Shown here: positions 821 to 38,097 of the stretch, one piece after another
Position numbering within the stretch: position 1 is the stretch's first letter
How the letters are laid out: each line of letters begins with the position of its first letter
Source: an uncultured Ectothiorhodospiraceae bacterium
GTDB taxonomy: Bacteria > Pseudomonadota > Gammaproteobacteria > S012-40
Direction of reading: 5' to 3'
Length of the DNA: 38,910 nucleotides
NCBI GenBank assembly: GCA_945787715.1
Contig: CALZJE010000058.1
Coordinates: 1-38,910 of the forward strand
The notes under the pieces: generated by a model
What the model was told of the DNA's origin: nothing
The model's input: the letters and a program-made list of their open reading frames with translations, nothing else
Databases searched by the model: none
Position numbers and translations under genes: made by a program

Positions 821-1828
821 TTATTCATCATCAACCTCCAGATCATCCGCTAACTCCGCTTCAATTTCTTCAATGCTGGGTAGGCTGCTTTTGAGATTAT
901 CGGGTAAGGACTGGGTTAAGCTTTGCTCCCAGTTGGCGACGCCGATGGGATTGTTAATACCGGATAGCGCGTATTCCACCACCATGTGGTTTTTATCTTT
1001 AACCAGTAGTAGCCCGATGCTGGGCTGGTCGTCGGGGTGTCGTAGCAGGTCATCCACGGCGTTGATGTACATGTTGAGTTGTCCGGCATGGCCAGGTTCA
1101 AACTTGCCTATTTTCAACTCCACGACCACATAGCGGCGAAGTTGTAAGTGATAAAAAAGCAGATCGGGATAGAAATCACTATCACCGATTTCCAGGGGAA
1201 CCTGACGACCCACGAAGGCAAAACCTTGGCCGAGTTCGAGAAGGAATTTTTGAATGTGCTCAACCAACCTCTGCTCAAGTTCAGCCTCCCGCTTTATATC
1301 CGCAGTACCTAAGAAGTCAAAAAGATAAGGGTCTTTGAAAGTCTGGGACACCAGGTCTGTATCAGCGGCAGGTAGTGTTGTAGGAAAGTTGTTGCTGGTT
1401 TTGCCTTCTCGTTGATGTAAGCGACCCTCTATTTGAAGCGCCAATACATTCTTACTCCAACCATATTCGACAGTTTTGGCGGCATACCACAGCCTGTCAT
1501 CCTGGTTCTCCAGTTTGTCCAGCAAGGTTAAGTTACTGCGCCAGGGTATTTGTGCAACGGTGCGTTGCACTATTTCCTGGTCTGGCCATTGTTCAGCAAA
1601 TGTGCGCATGTATTTGAGGTTGCGGGGTGAGAAACCATTAACTCCAGGGAAACGTTGTTTGAGATCATAAGAAAGCCGGTCGATTACCTTAGCCCCCCAG
1701 CCTTCGGTTTTTTGCTTTTGTAAGATAACACTGCCGATCTGCCAGTAGAGCTGGATCATTTGTCTGTTGGCTGTTAATACCGCCTTGGTTCGCCCCTGTT
1801 CAATACGTCGCGTATTATCAGAGCTCAT
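821..1828 (-). CDS. YhcG-family (DUF1016) PD-(D/E)XK nuclease
   Basis: 335-residue protein of the YhcG/DUF1016 family. The N-terminal ~150 residues form the family's helical domain (QLYWQIG near 27-32, GFSPRNLKYMRTF near 65-77, IPWRSNLTLL near 94-103). The C-terminal PD-(D/E)XK nuclease fold has P221-D222 and E237-L-K239 in the expected spacing (SDFYPDLLFYH, then YVVVELKIGKFEPGHAGQLN). Family members often sit in or beside type I restriction loci; their cellular role is not settled. The start overlaps the hsdM stop by 11 nt (1818-1828), implying translational coupling. The acidic C-terminus stops 107 bp before the hsdM remnant. Length is usual for the family, so it appears intact. Confidence 0.9.
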   Translation of the reverse strand: MSSDNTRRIEQGRTKAVLTANRQMIQLYWQIGSVILQKQKTEGWGAKVIDRLSYDLKQRFPGVNGFSPRNLKYMRTFAEQWPDQEIVQRTVAQIPWRSNLTLLDKLENQDDRLWYAAKTVEYGWSKNVLALQIEGRLHQREGKTSNNFPTTLPAADTDLVSQTFKDPYLFDFLGTADIKREAELEQRLVEHIQKFLLELGQGFAFVGRQVPLEIGDSDFYPDLLFYHLQLRRYVVVELKIGKFEPGHAGQLNMYINAVDDLLRHPDDQPSIGLLLVKDKNHMVVEYALSGINNPIGVANWEQSLTQSLPDNLKSSLPSIEEIEAELADDLEVDDE

Positions 1829-3593
1829 AACCTAACCCCGCTAAATTCTTTTTAATTTCCGCTTCTAATTTATCACTTTCTGCAAACTGTGTTTTTAGTT
1901 GCGCGGTGAGGCGTGACATTTTTTCTGCGAAGGGTTCGCCGTCGTCTTCCTCCAAGGTCGCGCCGACATAACGACCGGGAGTGAGCACGTAGTCATGTTT
2001 TTGTATGCCTTCCAGGGTTACGCTGGCGCAGAAGCCGGGGATATTCTGATAGTAAATCCCCCCTACCCCCCCTTTTTCAAAGGGGGGAATTGAACTGTCT
2101 TTTTCCGCTACGGCAGTTTCACCTCCCCCTTTGGCAAAGGGGGATTGAGGGGGATTTGTCTGCCACGCATGATAGGTTTCGGTGACTTTGTTTAAATCAT
2201 CTTGGGTGAAATCGCGCAGTACGCGGTCTTTCATATAGCCGAGATTGCGGGCGTCGATAAATAAAATTTCACCGCTGCGGTCGCGGAGTTTTTTTCCGCT
2301 GGCCGAAGTTCTTTGTTTTTTATTCTTGGTTAAAAACCAGATGCAGGCGGGAATTTGTGTATTGGTGAACAGTTGGCCGGGTAAGGCGACCATGCATTCG
2401 ACCAGATCATTTTCAATCAGCGCTTTGCGTATCGCCCCTTCGTTGTTGGTGTTGGAGCTCATAGAACCATTGGCTAACAACAGGCCCATGCTGCCATTGG
2501 GTGCCAGGTGATAGAGCATGTGTTGCAACCAGGCGAAGTTGGCATTACCGGAGGGCGGCTTACCGTATAACCAGCGTGGGTCGTTATCGTCTACGCCGGC
2601 ATCCCACTCTTTCATGTTAAACGGTGGGTTGGCCATGACGAAGTCGGCGCGCAGGTCTGGGTGCTGATCGTTGGTGTAGGTGTTGGCGGGTTCTTTACCA
2701 AAGTTAAAGTCGATGCCGCGTATGACCATGTTCATGGCGGCCAGTTGCCAGGTGGTGTGGTTGTATTCTTGCCCGTAGATGGAGACATCACCAATGCGGC
2801 CTTTATGTGCGGTGATAAAATGTTCTGACTGCACAAAGAAACCACCGGAGCCCATGGCGGGGTCGTAGACACGACCTTTAAAGGGTTCGAGCATTTGCAC
2901 GATGAGGCTGACGATGGATTTAGGCGTGTAGAACTGCCCGCCCTTTTTACCTTCGGCCAGGGCAAACTGACCGAGGAAGTATTCATACACGTGGCCGAGG
3001 ATGTCTTTGCTGCTGAGACTGTCGTGGCTGAAGGGTATGGTGGCGACCAGATCAATCAGCTCGCCGAGTTTGGCTTGGTCGATTTGTAACTGGGTGTAGC
3101 GTTTGTTGAGTACACCTTTGAGTTTGGGATTATCGTGTTCGATGGCTTCGAGGGCGTTATCGATGAGTTGGCCCACGGAGCGGATTTTTTTGGCGGCTTT
3201 GCCCTCGCCCACTTCGATTTCACCGGTGATAACGACTTTGTTCTGGTTTTGTAGAAATTCCCAACGGGCGACTTTAGGCACCCAAAAGACATTGGCTTCG
3301 GTGTAATAGTCGCGTTCTTCGAGTTCGTTGTTGATTTCGTCTTTGTACTCTTCGTTATCTAGCCCACCGAATTCTTCGGAATCGAGGAAGTATTCGTGCT
3401 CTGAATCTATGAACTGCTCTAGTAGCTCACGACGGCGTATATCAAACGAGTCACTAACGTATTTGAGGAAGATCATCCCTAATACGGTATGTTTATATTG
3501 TGAGGCATCAAGGGTGGAGCGCAGCTTGTCGGCACTAGTCCAGAGTTTTTTATCCAGGCTGTTTAAAAATTCTTGCTCTTCGTTGCTGGTCAT
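1818..3593 (-). CDS. hsdM: Type I restriction-modification DNA methyltransferase HsdM
   Basis: 591-residue N6-adenine methyltransferase subunit of a type I system. The HsdM N-terminal helical domain covers about 1-150. The SAM-binding motif DPAMGSGGF is at 244-252 and the catalytic NPPF at 322-325, within a typical methylase core with FYTPKSIVSL before it. The C-terminus has the usual YVLTPGRYVGA and KNLAGLGYE motifs. Between the core and the C-terminal helix, the protein contains roughly 35 extra residues encoded by an inserted palindromic repeat (2054-2157); relatives normally run straight from YHAW to the PGFC motif. All key catalytic residues are present and the frame is open, so it is probably active. 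First gene of the visible locus, start ATG 3593-3591. Confidence 0.94.
   Translation of the reverse strand: MTSNEEQEFLNSLDKKLWTSADKLRSTLDASQYKHTVLGMIFLKYVSDSFDIRRRELLEQFIDSEHEYFLDSEEFGGLDNEEYKDEINNELEERDYYTEANVFWVPKVARWEFLQNQNKVVITGEIEVGEGKAAKKIRSVGQLIDNALEAIEHDNPKLKGVLNKRYTQLQIDQAKLGELIDLVATIPFSHDSLSSKDILGHVYEYFLGQFALAEGKKGGQFYTPKSIVSLIVQMLEPFKGRVYDPAMGSGGFFVQSEHFITAHKGRIGDVSIYGQEYNHTTWQLAAMNMVIRGIDFNFGKEPANTYTNDQHPDLRADFVMANPPFNMKEWDAGVDDNDPRWLYGKPPSGNANFAWLQHMLYHLAPNGSMGLLLANGSMSSNTNNEGAIRKALIENDLVECMVALPGQLFTNTQIPACIWFLTKNKKQRTSASGKKLRDRSGEILFIDARNLGYMKDRVLRDFTQDDLNKVTETYHAWQTNPPQSPFAKGGGETAVAEKDSSIPPFEKGGVGGIYYQNIPGFCASVTLEGIQKHDYVLTPGRYVGATLEEDDGEPFAEKMSRLTAQLKTQFAESDKLEAEIKKNLAGLGYEL
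2054..2157. repeat. Palindromic repeat inserted in frame inside hsdM
   Basis: About 104 bp bounded by inverted arms starting AAATCCCCC and ending GGGGGATTT. Each half also contains a C-run/G-run hairpin (CCCCCCTTTTTCAAAGGGGGG on the left, CCCCCTTTGGCAAAGGGGG on the right). Translated on the minus strand it gives NPPQSPFAKGG and later PPFEKGGVGG. These peptide signatures are widely seen where such C/G-rich miniature repeats land inside genes. It is in frame, adding residues to HsdM without breaking it. Confidence 0.8.
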
Positions 3594-10045: not shown

Positions 10046-12289
10046 ATGTATGAAACGCATTTTAATTTGTCACGCAAACCATTTCGTCTTAGTCCAGACG
10101 TCAAGTTTTTTTACGCCAGTAAAATACATAAAAATGCACTCGCTTATTTAGAATATGGACTCGATCAGAATGAGGGTTTCTTAATTCTTACCGGTGACCC
10201 AGGCACTGGTAAAACGACACTTTTACACAAGATAGAACAGACGCTTTCTCGACAGTTCTGTATTGCTCGAGTTGATGTTTCTCCAGCAATGGAAACCCTG
10301 GAATTACTTCGGCTCATTGCGATATCATTTGGCATTAAGAATGTTCAAGATAGCGGTGAATCTGGTGTTGTGGATAAAATTAAAGAATTTCTTTCACTAC
10401 ATTTGCATTATAATCACCGAGCAATAATATTTGTTGATGAATGTCATCATTTATCTTACAAATCATTGGAAAGCCTGAGACTATTAACCAACATTCAACA
10501 TCGGGAGTTGCCTATTATTCAATGTTTTCTCGTTGGTCAATCTTCATTCCGTGACCAAATTAGAGCGCCTGAACTCGAACAGCTAAGTCAACGAGTCATT
10601 GCGATTTGTCATCTTGAGACACTCTGCGAGCAGGAAACGATAGATTACATTAAGCATCGCTTAACAACAGCTGGGCATCCAGTGGCAAACCTCTTTAGTA
10701 CTACTGCATCGAAAATTATCCATAAATTTACCTCAGGGAATCCACGTAGGATTAATCGGATTTGTGATCGAGCCCTACTCTACGCTTCAATTGAAGAAAA
10801 TCAGCATATCGACAAAAGAATTATATGTGATGTCATTGAAGAATTATCCGCTGAAATGGAAATCGAATTTGATGTAAGTCTATACCGCTCAATGATTGAA
10901 AAAACAGAATATAAAGAGGTTGTTCCTGAGGCGACTAGCGTTATTTGCCAGGATACAAAACGTAGCTCTACACCAAACCTTAGACCTACAAAAGCCAAGG
11001 CTATAGCCTACCCTTTACTTGTCGATAAAGTGCCTTCGAATCTAATAGACGATGATAGTCATATTCTTTCAACAGAAAATATCACACAAGATACGAATAT
11101 CGCATTGCAAACATATGAACCACAGCATGAAACGCAGCATGAAACGCAGGAAGTAAAACAACGCTCTTTTCGTCTACATTTAATAACAAGTATTGGAATT
11201 CTTTTTGTCGCCATACCCGCAATATTTATGGCTACATCTTCTCCCGATGAAATGGGATTGCCATGGAACACTTCATTTGATTTTTCTCCGAACACAGGCA
11301 ACATTGCCAATAATAATGAGTTTAGCCCCCCTACACCTCTACAGACAATAAACCCATTACAGCAGATAGAAAATGAAACCGTTTTAAAAAGCAATGCCCC
11401 TAACATTGAGGAAGTGGACTTAAACAATAACAATAACAATAACAATCCGGATGTCGTTTCTTTTATCGATGATTCCCATGCTATCAATACAAATGAAAAG
11501 CAACTATTGGCGCTTAAAGAAGAAAATGACATTGAGTTTGTAATGGCTAATCAACTCGCCCCCCAAAAAGAATCTCGGATGAAAACAATCAAAGTTTCGT
11601 CTACTGAGTTTCCAGCATTACTTCCAAATGTCAATAAAGAGATACTGAAATCGCCTAACGCTGAAAAAACTCACGCTAAACCAATAAAATCCACTTCAAA
11701 ACTCGCAACTTCACCTCGTCCAGATACAGAGCAGCATAAATTAGAAAAAATAACAAAAATAAGCTCGAAAGATATTAAAGTAGAGGGAGAAAAAACACTG
11801 CTGAAAATAGCCAAAAAATTACCCAGCAAAGAACTGGAACAAGTAGCAGTTAATAAGGCGGCGTTACCCGTAACAACGCCTATTAGTCAATCCGCTTCCT
11901 CCAAACAAGAGAAAAAGGTAAATGATTTTGAACCTGTCAATCTATACAAGGTCATTAATAAGTTTACAGGTGCTTATAAAGGTGGAGATATGAATAGCTT
12001 GTCCTCTGTACTCAGTAAAGACATTAAAACAGATGACAGTAACAATAGAGATTCACTGACAGCACAATACGAAAAACTCTTCAACATAACAGATGATCGT
12101 GAGCTCAAATTAATGAATGTTTCCTGGAAAACAGACACAGAAAAAGCAGCAGGTGAAGGACGATTTGAAGCAACAATATTGGAAAAAGGTCGCACTAAAC
12201 CTCAAACCTATGCAGGAACGTTTACAATGAGTATAGAGATACGAAATACTCAACTTGCTATCACAGATATGCGTTATGCATATCAATAA
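10046..12289 (+). CDS. ExeA/MshM-type AAA ATPase with transmembrane segment and C-terminal NTF2-like domain
   Basis: 747-residue protein. Residues 1-270 are an ExeA/GspA/MshM-like AAA ATPase: FNLSRKPFRLSPD at 6-18, Walker A GDPGTGKTT at 50-58, Walker B IIFVDE at 127-132, sensor-like GNPRRINRICDRALL at 231-245. A single hydrophobic span lies at about 377-396. A long low-complexity linker rich in Asn, Lys and Ser follows, and then an NTF2/SnoaL-like domain from about 627 to the end (FTGAYKGGDMNSLSSVLS). Relatives energise assembly of secretins, type IV pili or exopolysaccharide export; ExeA instead carries a peptidoglycan-binding C-terminus. It is the first of three closely spaced genes with an outer-membrane protein and a large lipoprotein, suggesting an envelope assembly role. 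No secretin or pilin is nearby. Confidence 0.82.
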   Translation: MYETHFNLSRKPFRLSPDVKFFYASKIHKNALAYLEYGLDQNEGFLILTGDPGTGKTTLLHKIEQTLSRQFCIARVDVSPAMETLELLRLIAISFGIKNVQDSGESGVVDKIKEFLSLHLHYNHRAIIFVDECHHLSYKSLESLRLLTNIQHRELPIIQCFLVGQSSFRDQIRAPELEQLSQRVIAICHLETLCEQETIDYIKHRLTTAGHPVANLFSTTASKIIHKFTSGNPRRINRICDRALLYASIEENQHIDKRIICDVIEELSAEMEIEFDVSLYRSMIEKTEYKEVVPEATSVICQDTKRSSTPNLRPTKAKAIAYPLLVDKVPSNLIDDDSHILSTENITQDTNIALQTYEPQHETQHETQEVKQRSFRLHLITSIGILFVAIPAIFMATSSPDEMGLPWNTSFDFSPNTGNIANNNEFSPPTPLQTINPLQQIENETVLKSNAPNIEEVDLNNNNNNNNPDVVSFIDDSHAINTNEKQLLALKEENDIEFVMANQLAPQKESRMKTIKVSSTEFPALLPNVNKEILKSPNAEKTHAKPIKSTSKLATSPRPDTEQHKLEKITKISSKDIKVEGEKTLLKIAKKLPSKELEQVAVNKAALPVTTPISQSASSKQEKKVNDFEPVNLYKVINKFTGAYKGGDMNSLSSVLSKDIKTDDSNNRDSLTAQYEKLFNITDDRELKLMNVSWKTDTEKAAGEGRFEATILEKGRTKPQTYAGTFTMSIEIRNTQLAITDMRYAYQ
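11423..11446 (+). repeat. Short tandem repeat (AACAAT)x4 inside the ATPase gene
   Basis: Four perfect copies of a 6-bp unit encode eight asparagines in the periplasmic linker of the ATPase. Changes in copy number would keep the frame, so this could vary linker length but not switch the gene off. Confidence 0.8.
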
Positions 12290-12336
12290 TTGGAAAACTA
12301 AGTTTTTCAAACAATCAACGTTTGATACCTTTTAAG

Positions 12337-12960
12337 ATGATCAATAAACGATTCTATTACAATTATAAGACTCTCATCTTATTTTATTTATTTCTATTCT
12401 CTGTTTCATCTCCAGTTTTTGCTGTTATTGGATTGCCCGATAATACAACTCGATATGGCGCAGCATTAGGAGTATCTCAAATGAGTGTTACTGAGCCTGA
12501 CGGGAGTAATCCAGACAAGGAACAAATGATCCCGTTAACCCTAATCGCTACAGATTGGCTGCCCTACGGAAATCGTTATTGGCTTGAATATGTCAATGGA
12601 AAAGCGGCATATGAGTCATCCGAAGTGATTGTTGGACAAAACGTCCACTACACTGCGCTAAGGGCAATCGTTCAACGACATATAAACGTCAGTAATCAAA
12701 TAAAACCTTGGTTCGGGATAGGAGTGGTCGTTTCTCGCGCAACTTTTGAGACACGTCATACTAAAGCGGATGACGGCTTTTTGATTCAGAAGTTTGATGA
12801 TCGTGTCAGTCATAGTCTGGGCCTTATAATAAATGCAACAATAGACTTCAAAATTGAGAAAAACTGGTACGCGGGATTTAAAGCAGAGCAAACATTCAAT
12901 CCAAACGTGAGTGTAGATACCCGTGGCGCAGGATTATTTTTCCTCTATTTATATCCATAA
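12337..12960 (+). CDS. Putative outer-membrane beta-barrel protein
   Basis: 207-residue protein with an N-terminal signal peptide (hydrophobic LILFYLFLFSVSSPVFA, cleavage likely after VFA). The rest alternates hydrophobic and polar residues with many aromatic strand ends, as in small 8-10 stranded outer-membrane proteins (GAALGVSQMSV, YWLEYVNGKAAY, KPWFGIGVVVSRA, LGLIINATIDFKI, GAGLFFLYLYP). I chose ATG 12337; an in-frame TTG five codons earlier is less likely. It lies 47 bp after the ATPase stop and 13 bp before the lipoprotein start, so all three are probably one transcript. No specific family recognised. It could be a pore, anchor or assembly partner for the large lipoprotein. Confidence 0.65.
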   Translation: MINKRFYYNYKTLILFYLFLFSVSSPVFAVIGLPDNTTRYGAALGVSQMSVTEPDGSNPDKEQMIPLTLIATDWLPYGNRYWLEYVNGKAAYESSEVIVGQNVHYTALRAIVQRHINVSNQIKPWFGIGVVVSRATFETRHTKADDGFLIQKFDDRVSHSLGLIINATIDFKIEKNWYAGFKAEQTFNPNVSVDTRGAGLFFLYLYP

Positions 12961-12973
12961 AACTAAACAGAGT

Positions 12974-15900
12974 ATGAAATTGATTATTCGACTGTTCGTT
13001 ATTTTTTTTATTCTTCAACTTGTCGCGTGTGGTGCAGGAGTAGACTCTGTCAAACTACCGCCGGAACGTAAATCATCATCTGTCAGTGGTTTTATCCTTG
13101 GCGGTTCATTAACGAACGCAGAAATCAATATTTACTCATTTAACAATGGTAACAAGGGCGTGAAACTCGCGAATGGAACTATTGATGAAACGGGTTTTTT
13201 CGAGATCACTGTTAAAGGAAAAAGCCAGGTAATATTATTAGAAGCCACTGCTGGTACCTATACTGAGCCAGCGACGGGTGAAAAAATTTCTATGCAAGAA
13301 GATCAGGTAATGACGACGCTTGCTTATTATCAAACTGAGGAATCACTTAATACCCAAATCTCTGCTCTTACGCATTTAGCGGCATCGCACATAAAGTATC
13401 AAACGCGAAGCAAGCAAGATTTTTTCAATTCATTTGAAAATACCAGCCAGTCACTAAAGAATTTGTTTGAGGTTGATATTTTTAATTCTTTTACCAATGA
13501 ATCGTCTAACGAGTCTAACAAGCCAGCAGCGATTGATGAAACTACCCTACATAAACAGTTTTTGTCTGCTATTTCCAGCCTGAGCTATTGGCTAGCACAA
13601 CGAAATGGTTACGGTGATCAAAAAACAATAAATACCCTTGAATTAATTCGAGTTATGCACAACGACATAACAAGCGATGGGTTACTTGACGGATTGGGAT
13701 TTAATGCAGACAACGAACTAATACAATTATTGATAGGGTCTATTGAGCTTAATGCAGACGTGTATCGAATGGGTATCGCTCAACACTTGTTGGCATATTC
13801 TCAGAACCCGCTAAATACAAGCGGGATAAGTAAACAAGAACTATTTCCAGTCGCTCAAACATTTGCAACCAGTCAACACCCTATATTTGGAACTGATGAA
13901 TTAAAACCATTGTCGCTTATGGCTCCCGAACTTAGCTTTCAATATTTAACACCGAAAAGTGAGAAAGATAGCTTCAAACTGTCTGTTGATATAGTTAGCA
14001 CTGTTGATATTGCCACTGCACTGTTTGATATCAATGGCAAGTCACTTGGCAGTGCAACATCAGCAAACCACCCGACACTTGAATTTAATTCCAACCAATA
14101 TGAAGATGGGGAATATAATTTAGGCGTATTGGCAACTGATATTCTGGGTAATAAAACATACCTAACCATTCCAGTTGTATTTGATAGCATTTACCCAAGC
14201 AATGTAAGCGGCTATTCTTTCGATGGCAAATTTACCAATGCAAATATCACCATTTATACCTCTCGCAATGGCAAGAAAGGCGAATATCTTGCGAGTGGGA
14301 AAACTGATAAAAATGGCTTTTTTGAGATTAGTGTTAAAAGTCAAAACCAGGTGCTGCTAATAGAAGCCACAAATGGTACTTATCCAGAACCAATAACCGA
14401 CGAACAAATTGACCTTCAGGATGGCCAAATCATCTCAACAACGGTTAACTATATCTCTGGTGATCCACTAACCACTCATCTTTCCCCATTAACTCATATT
14501 GCATCATCCCTTATTCAATTTAAATTGAGAAATGGGGAAACATTTTTAGAAGCAAAATCAAATGTAACAAAAATATTTCAAGAGATTTTTAATGTAGATG
14601 TGTTTTCTATTCCCTCATTGCTGACTAATGAAACAGAAATAGTCGAACCTCAACTCATCTCAAACGATGCAATGCATAATATCTATATGTCTACACTGTC
14701 AGGCTTTAGTTCTTGGTTTGCCGTGCAAAATGGACATCCAGATCAAAGTATTTTCAATACCGTTGAGCTTATCAAAATTATGTCAAAGGATATTATCGAG
14801 GATGGATTACTTGATGGCTTTGGCCTCGATGATAACAAACAAGCAATACAATTAGCCCTTGGAAGTGTCAAGCTTGATGCGAATGTCTATCGAATGGGCA
14901 TCGCATTGTATATCATGGCATATCTAAATAGTGATAATAACAATAGTGCTTTAAGCGATACAGACTTATTGCCATTAGCAAAGGCAATATCGAAAAGCGA
15001 ACATCCATTCTTTGGCTCCGCAAAAGTAGATACTGTTCCCGCTTTAGCGCCTATTCTTTCACACAGCTACCCCCAAACAATCAACATCGCAGGAGTATTT
15101 CGACTTACTGTCGGTGTTAGGAGTTTTGTTGACCTGGAAAGAATGGACATTTTTTTGGACGGTGTATTCATTGGACATATTAATACGCCGGATAAAGCTG
15201 AATTCACACTAGATTCAAAGAATTATTCAGATGGTGAACACGAAATAAAAGTCATCGTTACCGATGTGTTTGGGAATGAAGCTAATCTCACCATCCCTGT
15301 TATTTTCAATAATATTTTTCTTACGATAGACACACCGTTAATTACCAATCAGGAGAACCTGATTGTTGAAGGGAAATATTTTGGTGATATTGTGGCAATA
15401 AGTGTTGGTGATAATTCAATGACGATATCACCAGATGGGACCTGGTCTGGAGAGGTCTCTCTAAATTTAGGGGAAAATCCTTTACTGGTCAAGATTGAAG
15501 ATTTTTCTGGTTATCAAGAAGAATTTACCTTCAACATGATTTTAGATCAAACGCCACCGATTGTTGAAACCGATGGCAAACACAGTATGACAAGGTTTTC
15601 TCTTTCAGACGGAAGTTACCTGGCAGGACAACTTGTGAATGAGAATAATCTTAGCCCCATTTATTTTGAAAGCGACAACTTAAGCCTTGACGGTTTATCA
15701 ATTGACCGCACTATTCTGCAAGATAATGATATTCCATTTTTTGGATTTACACTTATTGATGCTCCCGATGGGGTTAACAATACGCCGCTGGCTGATTTAT
15801 CCGTTGAAATGCGCTACTTTAAAGATGATGTTCAATTGGGTGATGCAAAAACCCTATCCGCAACTGGGAATGAATACCTCATCCCACTGGTTTCTGAGTT

Positions 15901-17104
15901 TTTACATAGTGACTGGCATCAAACTAAGCCTTCAGACACGCACTCTATCCAGATTACCGTCACTGATGTTGCAGGGAATACTCAAGTACAGAGCTTTTCA
16001 TTTAATGCGGATATTTATGTGCCCGAATTGCAGATGGACGCCGTGAACGATATTGCTCAGGATATTTTTGCAAATACACTATTTGAGGCTAGAAGTGGAC
16101 TCAACGAATTTGAGTTTGAAAGCACAGAGTATTCATTTACCAATACCACAGGAAGAAGTTTTTTTATAAAGCTACAAGATGACAATACTCATGAAGCAAA
16201 GAACTTTATTGATGAAAGAGTTCGTGAGCATTTGGTTAAAACAAAAACTGAAACAAAATGGCGCGCAAACCAAATTACCAATGCATTAATCACAAATACA
16301 TGCCCTACTGCAACTGGCAATATGCAACCAATTACACAGATATACAATTACGAAAGTGGTAACTGGGGGGATCCTGTTTTACCAACAACACACCCTGAAG
16401 AAGTGTTCAATACCTATTCGGATGAATTACCTGACAATCCTCCAAGCTTAGATTGGTATGATATATCCGCAAAATTTGGAAATTCTCTTGCTGAAAAAAG
16501 AGAACCTAACATCGCTAAACAAACCACCTTAATCTATGAATATGATTATGTATTTGACTTGGATAGTTTAGCGTGGCCAGCGTATATACAAAACTGGCGT
16601 ATTGAAAAAATTAACGGCAATACGACTGAAATTCTAGAAACCTGTCCATCAGTAAGTTTTATCGAGGAAAGTCTGCAATATACCAACGAATCCGTAGATA
16701 CTTACCCCAAAAATGTTACAACAAGTTCTGAAAAAACTATGACTTTCTTAACAACAAAATTGAATGTTTTCGATACAGATTTCGATACAGATACTGCTTC
16801 AAAGATAGACCCCGTTCCAGAAACAGATTGGTACCACATACCTGCAGGTCATCGAATAGTAATCACCAAGGAAGTAAAAACACCGGCCCTTATAAATTAT
16901 AATGACACTGATTTATTATTAGATGATGGTGATTTTAATAGTTACACACGTCACCGCTTGGACAACACACTCCGCTGGTCTATTAACAACTCCATCATCA
17001 TTGAAACAACTTTCGATGCAGGCGAGGAGAATTTAAACTTAATGTCTCCGCGCTCACAAGATGTCGGTAATGGAACAGCAGTCTATGAATTACATCGTGA
17101 CTAA
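12974..17104 (+). CDS. Giant lipoprotein with tandemly duplicated domain block
   Basis: 1376-residue predicted lipoprotein. The signal peptide ends in the lipobox LVAC with Cys19; Gly at the next position favours the outer membrane. Two homologous blocks follow, residues ~36-405 and ~409-776. Each starts with a small beta domain (VSGF or VSGY, FFEITVK or FFEISVK, EATAGTY or EATNGTY). Each continues with a helical region (ALTHLAAS or PLTHIASS, DGLLDG, NVYRMGIA) and ends with an Ig-like module (DGEYNLGVLATDILGN or DGEHEIKVIVTDVFGN). Another Ig-like domain covers about 778-866 and an unrecognised 500-residue C-terminus follows. ATG 12974 was chosen over the longer open frame because it begins the signal peptide. 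Probably cell-surface or periplasmic; adhesion or assembly is only a guess. Confidence 0.75.
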   Translation: MKLIIRLFVIFFILQLVACGAGVDSVKLPPERKSSSVSGFILGGSLTNAEINIYSFNNGNKGVKLANGTIDETGFFEITVKGKSQVILLEATAGTYTEPATGEKISMQEDQVMTTLAYYQTEESLNTQISALTHLAASHIKYQTRSKQDFFNSFENTSQSLKNLFEVDIFNSFTNESSNESNKPAAIDETTLHKQFLSAISSLSYWLAQRNGYGDQKTINTLELIRVMHNDITSDGLLDGLGFNADNELIQLLIGSIELNADVYRMGIAQHLLAYSQNPLNTSGISKQELFPVAQTFATSQHPIFGTDELKPLSLMAPELSFQYLTPKSEKDSFKLSVDIVSTVDIATALFDINGKSLGSATSANHPTLEFNSNQYEDGEYNLGVLATDILGNKTYLTIPVVFDSIYPSNVSGYSFDGKFTNANITIYTSRNGKKGEYLASGKTDKNGFFEISVKSQNQVLLIEATNGTYPEPITDEQIDLQDGQIISTTVNYISGDPLTTHLSPLTHIASSLIQFKLRNGETFLEAKSNVTKIFQEIFNVDVFSIPSLLTNETEIVEPQLISNDAMHNIYMSTLSGFSSWFAVQNGHPDQSIFNTVELIKIMSKDIIEDGLLDGFGLDDNKQAIQLALGSVKLDANVYRMGIALYIMAYLNSDNNNSALSDTDLLPLAKAISKSEHPFFGSAKVDTVPALAPILSHSYPQTINIAGVFRLTVGVRSFVDLERMDIFLDGVFIGHINTPDKAEFTLDSKNYSDGEHEIKVIVTDVFGNEANLTIPVIFNNIFLTIDTPLITNQENLIVEGKYFGDIVAISVGDNSMTISPDGTWSGEVSLNLGENPLLVKIEDFSGYQEEFTFNMILDQTPPIVETDGKHSMTRFSLSDGSYLAGQLVNENNLSPIYFESDNLSLDGLSIDRTILQDNDIPFFGFTLIDAPDGVNNTPLADLSVEMRYFKDDVQLGDAKTLSATGNEYLIPLVSEFLHSDWHQTKPSDTHSIQITVTDVAGNTQVQSFSFNADIYVPELQMDAVNDIAQDIFANTLFEARSGLNEFEFESTEYSFTNTTGRSFFIKLQDDNTHEAKNFIDERVREHLVKTKTETKWRANQITNALITNTCPTATGNMQPITQIYNYESGNWGDPVLPTTHPEEVFNTYSDELPDNPPSLDWYDISAKFGNSLAEKREPNIAKQTTLIYEYDYVFDLDSLAWPAYIQNWRIEKINGNTTEILETCPSVSFIEESLQYTNESVDTYPKNVTTSSEKTMTFLTTKLNVFDTDFDTDTASKIDPVPETDWYHIPAGHRIVITKEVKTPALINYNDTDLLLDDGDFNSYTRHRLDNTLRWSINNSIIIETTFDAGEENLNLMSPRSQDVGNGTAVYELHRD
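13079..15310 (+). repeat. Diverged tandem duplication within the lipoprotein gene
   Basis: Two ~1.1-kb units (about 13079-14188 and 14198-15310) encode clearly homologous protein blocks in the same order. Paired landmarks are the VSG start, the TY-EP motif, the LTHxA motif, DGLLDG, the RMGIA motif and the final TIPV strand. DNA identity is low by eye, so the duplication is old. Confidence 0.8.
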
Positions 17105-20261: not shown

Positions 20262-20290
20262 CAAAAAAAAGAACCCCGCCTAGGCGGGGT
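20262..20290 (-). terminator. Rho-independent terminator of the cold-shock gene
   Basis: On the minus strand the perfect palindrome ACCCCGCCTAGGCGGGGT (20290-20273) is followed by TTC and eight T residues (20270-20263). A second stem-loop, CATCGG/CCGATG (20297-20313), precedes it. It lies 39 bp beyond the csp stop codon. Confidence 0.9.
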
Positions 20291-20328
20291 CTTTCACATC
20301 GGTTTTACCGATGAGGTCTAGCGTAGGT

Positions 20329-20532
20329 TTAGGCAGCAGTTACACTGGTCGCCTGTGGGCCTTTAGGACCATTCTCTACCTCGTAAGTGACCTTTTGACC
20401 TTCTGTCAGATTTTTAAAACCTGAACTCTGGATTGCGCTGAAATGTACAAATACATCTGCACCGCCATCATCTTGAGAAATAAAGCCAAAACCTTTAGAT
20501 TCGTTAAACCACTTTACAGTACCTGTTGCCAT
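20329..20532 (-). CDS. Cold-shock protein, CspA family
   Basis: 67-residue single cold-shock domain that binds single-stranded RNA and DNA. RNP1 KGFGFI is at 13-18 and RNP2 VFVHF at 27-31, and the length is canonical. The ribosome site AGGTA precedes the ATG. The leader is long (about 115-120 nt from the candidate promoter), as in CspA-type genes where the leader senses temperature. Which paralogue it is cannot be told from sequence alone. Confidence 0.95.
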
Positions 20533-20656
20533 AAACTTTTTACCTGAAATAATTTAAAAGATAGAGTGTCGCATACAGGTAATGAAACGGGGAATTTAGA
20601 GGGTAACACGGAAGGATCAACCAAAACTGCCAATAACAATAACTGTAGCTGTACAT

Positions 20657-34167: not shown

Positions 34168-37100
34168 ATGATGAAAATTCAAAATCAGTTCTTTATCATC
34201 TTGCTAATGTATTTGGCTTTGACTTTGATGAGCACGAGTATGGCTGTAGCAGATTCATTTACAATACCGACCAACAAGTCCAGCATATTAGAAAATGGGA
34301 TACATAAGGCTTTAAATAAGAGCAATATTTATCTTAATGATCAAGGTAATGCTATCTTTTCTGCAGAGCAAACAATTCCACGCCCCCAAAGCTATGTACC
34401 AATTTCTTTGAAACCAAATGACTCAGATCACTTACATTCTTTTGGAAGTTCGGTCGCAATATATGGAAACTACATAGCAGTTGGCACTTCCTCTGGTGTC
34501 GTTTATCTGTTCAAAAAGGAGAGTGATGGCCAGTGGAATCAAGTAGAAAAGCTTCTATTTTCTGATGCGGAAGCATCAACCATCAAAGTGCAAATATATA
34601 AGGATGTATTAGTAGTTGGCGTGATTGAGAAATTCCCTGTATATAAATATGAAACCGCTTTTTATATTTACGAGTTAAATGCTAATGACCAGTGGAGTCA
34701 GTCAACTAGATTGGCTGAAGGTTTTTCTAATACAGCTTTAGATGCATTTTCATTGCATGATAATAATCTGGTTATTGTTAATTACACGAGCGGGTTGGAA
34801 ATTCATAACTATTTTAGAGTAAATATGGGCGTGTGGGGAAAGACACCTCCAACAATAGTTATGGAGCTGGATTATTATGAAGCGCACTATGTAAGTTTAT
34901 TCAATGGTTCGTTAGCAGTAGTCTCCCAATATGATGGAATATTATATTTAATGAAAAAAAACGAAACCAATGAATGGGGAATTACTGAATATGTAGACAT
35001 AGGTTCTTCAGATGGTTGTACATGGGTCGATGGCGTTCAAAATTATGGTGATACTATAATTGTTAAGTCCAAGAATAGATCATTTATATTACATGAAGTT
35101 AATGAAGGTACTTGGGATGTGATTCATGAAAGCGATTATTTTGGTTATGAATTGTGTGTGAATAACCCAAACACTAGTTTTTCTTACTTTATAGGAGACA
35201 GATTATTGTTTGGATATGGAGCTAATGCATTTATGGAGGAAATGACCGGAGATGTATGGTCTCGATCATGGACAGGCACATTACATAACTTACCTTTGTA
35301 TCCAGAGGGAATATCTTTCTTTTCTAGTGCAATTTATGAAAACCAACTAGTGGTGGGACATGGGGCTGATTTTTGGAATGATAGAGATGGTGTTGTTACT
35401 TTACTTAATCTAGATTTTAGTGACTATGATGGAGACGGCATTCCAAATCTAATTGACTTATGTCCAGGTGGATTAGATAGTGTGAACGATTCGTTAACAT
35501 ATTATGAGTGTAATTCTGATCTCGATAGTGACGGAATTCCTAATGTCTATGAGAATAGTTATGGTCTAAACCCTTTGGATCCCACTGATGCTTTGTTAGA
35601 TTCAGATAGTGATGGATTTAACAATCTCGAAGAGTTTTATGAAAGTACAGACTTGAATTCAGATGTAAGTCACCGGAAAGATACTGATCTATTATTCCGC
35701 AGCCATTTCTCTACAGAAACTCAAACTGTCTTCACGTTTGGGCTTAACCTCTCAGGTGAAGATAGCACGTTGATAATGTCAAATGGGGTTTATGGTAATT
35801 TTAATACAATTCAGTTTCTTTCTGTTCAAGAGAATGGAAGTCTTTTCCTTAATAATGAACTAAAAACACTAAATCATGGAGAGGATTTTTATAGGAATTT
35901 AGATACAGCTATTTCTGGTGATTTTGCGTTGATAGGGCATTCCAGTATGAACAATTTATATTCGGGATACACTGCCGGTGGTGTATATGTGTATGCTAAA
36001 GATGATTCTGGCGTTTGGAAACAGAAATCGATAATAAGAAAGATAACAGAGAGTGATAATTCAGTTGGTTATAATCCATTTGGCGTTCACGTAGCATTAT
36101 CAAAAAATACAGCACTAATCTCAAATAGAAACGATGTATTTGTTTATCAATATTTTTTGGAGAAAGATGAATGGATAATTGACCAGAAGCTGCCTACTAG
36201 GCAAGATGCTGGTGGAAAAACCAGTGGGAGGGACTTGAAGGGTATTTTAGATGTGAGTCTAAGAGAGGACGTGGCGATTATTCATTTTGATCAATATAAT
36301 GAGAATAGTCTCAATTTTTCTTCTGATCTAAAGTCAACAATTGTAATATACCAACGAAAAGGGGAAACTTGGCAGTTCGAAACAGTAATCGAAGCAGAAA
36401 GATGGTCAGATATTGATTATGAAAATGGTACTTTATATGTCGGGATGCCAAGCGCTAAGAAGGACAATGGTGAAGTTGTGCTATATAAAAAGCATGAACA
36501 AATTGGTTGGCAGAAAATAAGGATTATTGGGTCGCCCGACCGGCTTGCTAAAAGATTTGGCGTTCAATTAGATGTTCATGGAGATATGCTAGCGGTTTTA
36601 ACAATGTATTCAACTTCTGTCTATCTTATGTCAATTGATAAAAATGGTAACGTAAATCAATGGGGAAGTGCAGCTTTAAGAAATACTCAATTGATTGGTA
36701 ATATTTATCCTAGTCTCAAGATCTTGGGTGATCAGGTTTATGTTGGGGGTGGGTTTTATGATAGTTTAACTGATCATGTAGATCTGGGTAAAATAGTTAG
36801 TATAGAAATAAATAATCGAGATGAAGATGACGATAATATATTTGATTATTCTGATAACTGTATAAAGCAGGCTAATTCGGATCAAGCAAACTTTGACAGA
36901 GATAAATTTGGAGATTTATGTGATGAGGATGACGATAACGATGGAATCTTGGATGTAGATGATAGATATGATTTTGTTATTGGTTCCCTAGATGAAGATA
37001 GAGATTTTCTTACGGATGAATGGGAGCGAAGATATTTTTCAGATATAGCTCTTTACAATGGTGATAGTGACCCGGATGGTGATGGGTTGATAAATAGTCT

Positions 37101-38097
37101 TGAAATGAAGTACGGTTCTGATCCAAACTCTGAAGATACAGACAATGATGATATTCTTGATAGGGAAGAGATAGCCCATTTTTCTGATCCAACAAGGCGT
37201 GATGACTTACCTGAATTTCACAAACCTGATGTTCCATTTATAATTAAAGATAATAACGGCTACAGAACTTCCGAATTTTCAGATCCTGATATTGAAAAAG
37301 GTGACTATTTAGCTGCTATTGAATGGAATATATTTGGCGTTAAAAAATTAGTAGAGAAAAATACAAGGTCGCCAATATTTTTTACAATTCCCAAAGCTGT
37401 TGCTGATCCTGAAACAGGAAGAAGATGCTGTATCTATGCAACGCATATAGATAGCACTGGATTATTTGAGCAGTCGTTAGCTAGCTATATAGACTCGACA
37501 GGATATATAGACAGCAATGGAAATGGAATAGAAGATTCGATTGAAGTTAGCGAAGATTTATATTCTGATGTTAATAATGATCAACGAGATGATCGTGAAC
37601 AATTAATGACAAGACTTTATGATCGTGAGACAAAAAATATGAGAGGTGTAATAATTGCCGGTTTTAAACCCGGTAATGTAAGTAGTTATGGGCAATCAGA
37701 ATTGCCCGAAAAAATTAGGGAAAGACACGCTATTCTAGGAGATGTTTTCAGTGTTAGTAAATCCCATATTGTCACCTCTGATAAAGCAAGAGAATATACT
37801 TTTAAGTTCTATTATACAGAAGATATTCCGACTGATTATAGTTGGTATCAATACGATGAAATTAAAAGTAAACTAATATCGAGAAAAGAGCTTTCTTATA
37901 TCAGTGGCAATATGGTGGTTGTAAAAATTGTTGATGGTGGTGAAGGTGATGTTGATGGGGTTCAAAATGGGCGTGTTGTACACTCGGGTGGACTTGCAAT
38001 TGGGCTTAGTAACAACACAGGTTTTTTGGGATTAGGCGCTATGAGTTGGCCAATCTTATTTTTACTATTCTTGGTAAAATATAAAGGGAAAAAATAA
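34168..38097 (+). CDS. Large secreted protein with beta-propeller-like segments, thrombospondin type 3 repeats and choice-of-anchor U domain
   Basis: 1309-residue exported protein. The signal peptide ends about AVA-D (residue ~30). Two FG-GAP-like beta-propeller regions (about 80-410 and 520-870) show repeating patterns such as GSSVAIYGNYIAVG and GVYVYAKDDSG. Each is followed by calcium-binding thrombospondin type 3 repeats (about 419-500 with DYDGDGIPN, DLDSDGIPN, DSDSDGFNN; about 882-1010 with DEDDDNDGILD, DSDPDGDGL). A choice-of-anchor U domain ends in VDGGEGDVDGVQNGRVV. The tail GLGAMSW, a hydrophobic span and a basic KYKGKK end resemble GlyGly-CTERM-type sorting signals, handled by rhombosortase and type II secretion. 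A surface or released role is likely; ligand unknown. Ribosome site GACGGAAG precedes the ATG. Confidence 0.8.
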   Translation: MMKIQNQFFIILLMYLALTLMSTSMAVADSFTIPTNKSSILENGIHKALNKSNIYLNDQGNAIFSAEQTIPRPQSYVPISLKPNDSDHLHSFGSSVAIYGNYIAVGTSSGVVYLFKKESDGQWNQVEKLLFSDAEASTIKVQIYKDVLVVGVIEKFPVYKYETAFYIYELNANDQWSQSTRLAEGFSNTALDAFSLHDNNLVIVNYTSGLEIHNYFRVNMGVWGKTPPTIVMELDYYEAHYVSLFNGSLAVVSQYDGILYLMKKNETNEWGITEYVDIGSSDGCTWVDGVQNYGDTIIVKSKNRSFILHEVNEGTWDVIHESDYFGYELCVNNPNTSFSYFIGDRLLFGYGANAFMEEMTGDVWSRSWTGTLHNLPLYPEGISFFSSAIYENQLVVGHGADFWNDRDGVVTLLNLDFSDYDGDGIPNLIDLCPGGLDSVNDSLTYYECNSDLDSDGIPNVYENSYGLNPLDPTDALLDSDSDGFNNLEEFYESTDLNSDVSHRKDTDLLFRSHFSTETQTVFTFGLNLSGEDSTLIMSNGVYGNFNTIQFLSVQENGSLFLNNELKTLNHGEDFYRNLDTAISGDFALIGHSSMNNLYSGYTAGGVYVYAKDDSGVWKQKSIIRKITESDNSVGYNPFGVHVALSKNTALISNRNDVFVYQYFLEKDEWIIDQKLPTRQDAGGKTSGRDLKGILDVSLREDVAIIHFDQYNENSLNFSSDLKSTIVIYQRKGETWQFETVIEAERWSDIDYENGTLYVGMPSAKKDNGEVVLYKKHEQIGWQKIRIIGSPDRLAKRFGVQLDVHGDMLAVLTMYSTSVYLMSIDKNGNVNQWGSAALRNTQLIGNIYPSLKILGDQVYVGGGFYDSLTDHVDLGKIVSIEINNRDEDDDNIFDYSDNCIKQANSDQANFDRDKFGDLCDEDDDNDGILDVDDRYDFVIGSLDEDRDFLTDEWERRYFSDIALYNGDSDPDGDGLINSLEMKYGSDPNSEDTDNDDILDREEIAHFSDPTRRDDLPEFHKPDVPFIIKDNNGYRTSEFSDPDIEKGDYLAAIEWNIFGVKKLVEKNTRSPIFFTIPKAVADPETGRRCCIYATHIDSTGLFEQSLASYIDSTGYIDSNGNGIEDSIEVSEDLYSDVNNDQRDDREQLMTRLYDRETKNMRGVIIAGFKPGNVSSYGQSELPEKIRERHAILGDVFSVSKSHIVTSDKAREYTFKFYYTEDIPTDYSWYQYDEIKSKLISRKELSYISGNMVVVKIVDGGEGDVDGVQNGRVVHSGGLAIGLSNNTGFLGLGAMSWPILFLLFLVKYKGKK

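Follow-up and report, generated by a model that had tools for sequence, protein, structure and literature searches.

A conserved gene set coding for an NTF2-domain inner-membrane ATPase, a small predicted outer-membrane barrel and a large Ig-rich lipoprotein in Gammaproteobacteria

The window considered here, a contiguous stretch of 38,910 nucleotides from an uncultured Ectothiorhodospiraceae bacterium (contig CALZJE010000058.1), carries three consecutive forward-strand genes for an ATPase, a putative outer-membrane barrel and a giant lipoprotein, and thus raises the question of whether these form an envelope system of their own and what such a system might do. The ATPase gene extends from the ATG at 10046 to a stop codon ending at 12289 (747 aa), the barrel gene from the ATG at 12337 to a stop codon ending at 12960 (207 aa), and the lipoprotein gene from the ATG at 12974 to a stop codon ending at 17104 (1376 aa). 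These positions, as well as the intergenic gaps of 47 bp between ATPase and barrel and of 13 bp between barrel and lipoprotein, were re-derived and agree throughout with the first-pass annotation, and the three genes may be co-transcribed. A Pfam search of the window revealed no genes of a type IV secretion system (T4SS) at the locus. Elsewhere in the window, a YhcG/DUF1016 nuclease adjoins an HsdM methylase on the reverse strand (821-3593), a cspA thermoregulator is recognised by Rfam on the same strand (20266-20653, 86.5 bits), and positions 34168-38097 code for a 1309-aa protein with FG-GAP repeats and a weak match to TSP3 repeats, which is unrelated to the trio.

In the bacterium's own order, represented by 13 genomes, barrel relatives are present in G005, G006 and G002, and each is adjoined by a lipoprotein relative. 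A search of 369 gammaproteobacterial genomes with a barrel profile yielded matches in 22 genomes, and at E < 1e-14 a total of 28 barrel loci could be counted in the Gammaproteobacteria, 22 of which have the lipoprotein gene directly downstream on the same strand. Among these 22 barrel-lipoprotein loci, 12 have a gene for an NTF2-domain protein directly upstream, five end a T4SS-like operon and five do neither. As the flanking genes vary from locus to locus, it is the set itself that constitutes the conserved unit. In addition, distances between barrels and distances between lipoproteins are correlated (r = 0.82, 18 loci), and in the 369 genomes all complete C-terminal domains of the lipoprotein are encoded directly after a barrel gene (15/15, a reverse count partly biased by a profile built from barrel-adjacent lipoproteins). 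No barrel match adjoins those lipoproteins of G002 (contigs C27, C62 and C95) whose similarity is confined to the N-terminal modules or to the last Ig domain. The suggestion that the three genes make up a self-contained set is thereby borne out: the co-occurrence search finds them as neighbours in many genomes, and they are a conserved set and no chance neighbours. One genome, G034, alone holds four barrel-lipoprotein loci, namely one trio, one lone pair and two T4SS-linked pairs (L127, L128, L132, L133), and in a Chromatiaceae MAG (L149, 3327-7771) two tandem AAA proteins precede the NTF2 protein, the barrel and the lipoprotein, with a run of N in the NTF2 gene.

Scanning genome contigs with a seven-row subset of the lipoprotein alignment gave ten loci, all of them in MAGs, and the barrel protein alone as query gave no relative in such contigs. 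In a phylum-wide sample of 398 genomes the bacterium's own genome was the sole match, and the system must therefore be rare. Named carriers include Gammaproteobacteria HyVt-540, Biocath_Gamma_008 and a Chromatiaceae MAG, as well as Ca. Tenderia electrophaga (G252), which has the trio on a large contig and a barrel-lipoprotein pair on plasmid CP013100.1, both annotated as hypothetical. No description of the system was found in the literature and libraries searched; it is real, conserved and built of known parts, and apparently undescribed as far as these tools show.

In the upstream protein, an AAA domain (aa 1-270) is followed by a single transmembrane segment (aa 379-397), by a long linker and, at the C-terminus, by an NTF2/SnoaL-like domain (about aa 635-747). 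Together with a match to AAA_22 (PF13401, 67.9 bits), the transmembrane segment provides the AAA and TM features of ExeA/GspA, and the core had been assigned to the ExeA/MshM type. This assignment does not hold. In NCBIfam the XrtA/PEP-CTERM ATPase model TIGR03015 ranks first and covers the AAA core over its full length, though at 265.2 bits against a cut-off of 324.5, and a tree of AAA domains places the trio ATPases on the XrtA/EPS branch, well away from the remaining AAA proteins encoded in those genomes. They do not cluster with a pilus or secretin locus in this tree; an AAA protein encoded among prepilin-like genes on contig C22 is distant from them. Monophyly of the trio ATPases is not rejected (p-AU 0.107) at a weak support of 63/51, and they stand apart from the ATPases of XrtA loci. 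The latter lie about 5-6 kb from an exosortase gene in G252, G216, G319 and G347, and those of G252 and G216 are short proteins with no NTF2 match. An exosortase (PF09721) was searched for in the bacterium's own genome (G000), G207 and G034, all carriers of the trio, and gave no match, so that an XrtA/PEP-CTERM role in the own genome was rejected. Judged by its sequence, the ATPase is a relative of the XrtA branch that probably serves something else, and not an ExeA/MshM protein.

The replacement of a peptidoglycan-binding domain by an NTF2-like one was, by comparison, recognised correctly. Among the Pfam families shown for the ATPase none is peptidoglycan-binding, and the NTF2-like domain, marginal in the window protein alone (SnoaL_2, E = 0.053), is matched by SnoaL_2 in seven of 11 homologues (best 4e-6), while in the PDB a profile of the domain matches PBP5/MecA, in the part with an NTF2 fold, as well as NTF2 proteins designed de novo (E = 7e-4 at best). 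A homology of this domain to the VirB8-like T4SS protein was also considered and rejected (hhalign probability 0.1). The AAA domain itself is dispensable, and the conserved part of the upstream protein comprises the transmembrane segment and the NTF2 domain: both are kept in G005, where the upstream protein has 322 aa and no AAA domain, and in G048 (contig C66), where a DnaJ domain takes the place of AAA. The bacterium's own genome furthermore has a lone paralogue on contig C8 (22756-25401; L068, 10757-13417), which combines AAA, DnaJ, TM and NTF2 in one protein, has a CPBP-type gene on one side and spoVR-like genes on the other, and has relatives across the family. The loci of its relatives in G005 and G008 resemble exopolysaccharide loci, judging by gene order and sequence features.

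For the barrel protein, a signal peptide and eight strands are predicted, and the predicted model (pLDDT 83) adopts an OmpA/NspA/OmpW-like fold. Its best matches amongst solved structures are OmpA, NspA and OmpW (Z 16-18), and porin III of the Dot/Icm system is level with OmpW (Z 16.8). In spite of this likeness to eight-stranded barrels the protein does not belong to the OmpW family of Pfam (PF03922, 16.7 bits against a gathering cut-off of 24), and it differs from them in being strictly paired with a lipoprotein. The first-pass annotation left open whether the barrel acts as conduit or as anchor; as the predicted barrel has only eight strands, the role of an anchor is to be preferred, and that of a conduit for proteins appears unlikely.

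The lipoprotein of the window has the lipobox LVAC with Gly, and not Asp, at position +2, and a lipobox is present in all 21 of the relatives checked. Its description as a giant, internally duplicated protein proved accurate: a beta and helical module with an Ig domain occurs in two copies (about aa 34-404 and 405-785), which are 39% identical over 373 aa, and is followed by further Ig-like domains and a C-terminal domain (about aa 1021-1376). Most relatives are about 1000 aa long, with the module in a single copy. In Foldseek comparisons the Ig part is nearest to SiiE and to RTX adhesin extenders, a resemblance that is weak because the Ig fold is common, so that a function in adhesion can only be suggested; the C-terminal domain, which in its complete form is found solely in barrel-adjacent lipoproteins, is barely covered by the comparison with solved structures. 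At two loci (L126, 6274-8370; L129, 10145-12400) the barrel-adjacent lipoprotein lacks a C-terminal domain, and the one of L126 may be truncated. On its own, the N-terminal module is also encoded on Vibrio and Photobacterium replicons (L191, hits H3-H6), for which no annotation is listed.

An addition to the earlier account is the link to conjugation-type T4SS operons. Five barrel-lipoprotein pairs end divergent operons of the VirB4/VirB10 type, one each in G002, G216 and on the Tenderia plasmid and two in G034. These pair-bearing operons code for a relative of VirB4/TraC (3e-23) and for one of VirB10/TrbI (up to 5e-7, matched by three of its six members), whereas their VirB8- and VirB9-like proteins have no convincing sequence relatives in the PDB and are named by position and size only. 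Three more barrels reside in other T4SS-type clusters, with VirB4 (701 bits) in L138, DotG (133 bits) in L140, and relatives of three T4SS proteins in L141.

With anatomy and conservation being well supported, the function of the set can be approached by reasoning, and we infer a trans-envelope display module, composed of the small barrel and an Ig-rich, adhesin-like lipoprotein and served by exchangeable inner-membrane partners, a reading to which we would give an even chance. The lipoprotein would reach the outer membrane through Sec and Lol and would be held on its small dedicated barrel by the conserved C-terminal domain, with the Ig-like stalk projecting outward for adhesion or contact between cells. 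The upstream protein would reside in the inner membrane and have a periplasmic linker long enough for the NTF2 domain to cross the peptidoglycan and to dock on barrel and lipoprotein, while the cytoplasmic AAA domain might use ATP to help in the assembly or control of the unit. Aid of this kind to an outer-membrane structure has a precedent in ExeA/ExeB of the inner membrane, which is needed for the assembly of the secretin (PMC4098917). The inner-membrane partner could be AAA-TM-NTF2, DnaJ-TM-NTF2, TM-NTF2 alone or a conjugation T4SS; ten barrel-lipoprotein loci have no adjoining NTF2 protein, and a tether is therefore not always needed there.

Alternatively, barrel and lipoprotein might have begun as a mating-contact or outer-membrane accessory of a T4SS, the chromosomal copies with an NTF2-ATPase being derivatives for cell-cell contact. 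The pairs ending VirB4/VirB10-type operons, one of them on a plasmid, the barrels of L138, L140 and L141 and the likeness to Dot/Icm porin III argue for such an origin, the more so as porin rings around T4SS channels have been reported, with a role stated as undetermined (PMC12857230). However, loci with an NTF2 protein outnumber those with a T4SS, the T4SS-linked members lie on long branches, and T4SS genes are absent at the locus of the window; we consider this origin possible but rather doubtful. A purely structural link, in which a lipoprotein facing the periplasm would help to connect the two membranes and the peptidoglycan, is unlikely: a lipobox by itself implies no more than outer-membrane sorting, and a plain tether could be made of the barrel and the NTF2 domain, but an Ig-rich stalk of 1000-1400 aa would be of unusual size for it, and the linkage to conjugation operons suits an outward role better, although neither point is decisive.

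It is still less probable that the barrel is the conduit of a secretion pathway for the lipoprotein, as first suggested. The adjacency of barrel and lipoprotein genes does recall Slam and its substrates, and both systems pair an outer-membrane barrel with a lipoprotein, but Slam has a 14-stranded barrel with N-terminal TPRs (PMC7857515), whereas the 207-aa protein has eight predicted strands and no TPR match in Pfam. Least probable, and scarcely to be entertained, is a part in an exopolysaccharide or XrtA/PEP-CTERM pathway. The AAA core is closest to the XrtA/PEP-CTERM model, sharing its full length and its branch of the tree, and the NTF2-bearing paralogues of G005 and G008 lie in exopolysaccharide-looking loci; against this stand the score below the cut-off, the three trio-carrying genomes with no exosortase, and the separation of the trio ATPases from the XrtA-locus ATPases.

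The display module preferred here resembles several known systems in part. Like ExeA/ExeB of type II secretion, it has an inner-membrane AAA protein with a periplasmic part that presumably aids an outer-membrane partner (PMC4098917), but its ATPase has an NTF2 domain in place of the peptidoglycan-binding one, belongs to another AAA branch and has no secretin nearby. Large Ig-domain proteins encoded with transfer genes are also known from IncHI transfer regions, where the Ig-like (Big) RSP proteins are required for conjugation (PMC6764697, PMC8730810); the same arrangement holds for five relatives of the set, whereas here a lipoprotein with a dedicated barrel is concerned, and no transfer genes lie near the copy in the window. 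A pairing of barrel and lipoprotein is likewise seen in the display of RcsF by outer-membrane proteins, with the difference that the present lipoprotein is giant and its barrel dedicated. RcsF is small and relies on general porins.

To our knowledge, few dedicated routes for surface lipoproteins exist, and none of them combines a small, dedicated barrel with an ATPase in the cytoplasm. Should the set be a plug-in display unit, driven at some loci by an AAA ATPase and at others by a protein with a DnaJ domain, by the NTF2 tether on its own or by a T4SS for conjugation, a tentative generalisation that we regard as rather improbable, it would represent a way of coupling ATP to the placement or movement of a lipoprotein at the surface. 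Most of the carriers found so far belong to uncultured Gammaproteobacteria, and the biocathode organism Ca. Tenderia electrophaga is one of the carriers; those elements in which a VirB10-like gene is accompanied by genes for a small barrel and an adhesin-like lipoprotein may offer a genetic handle on the role of the barrel rings of T4SS (PMC12857230).
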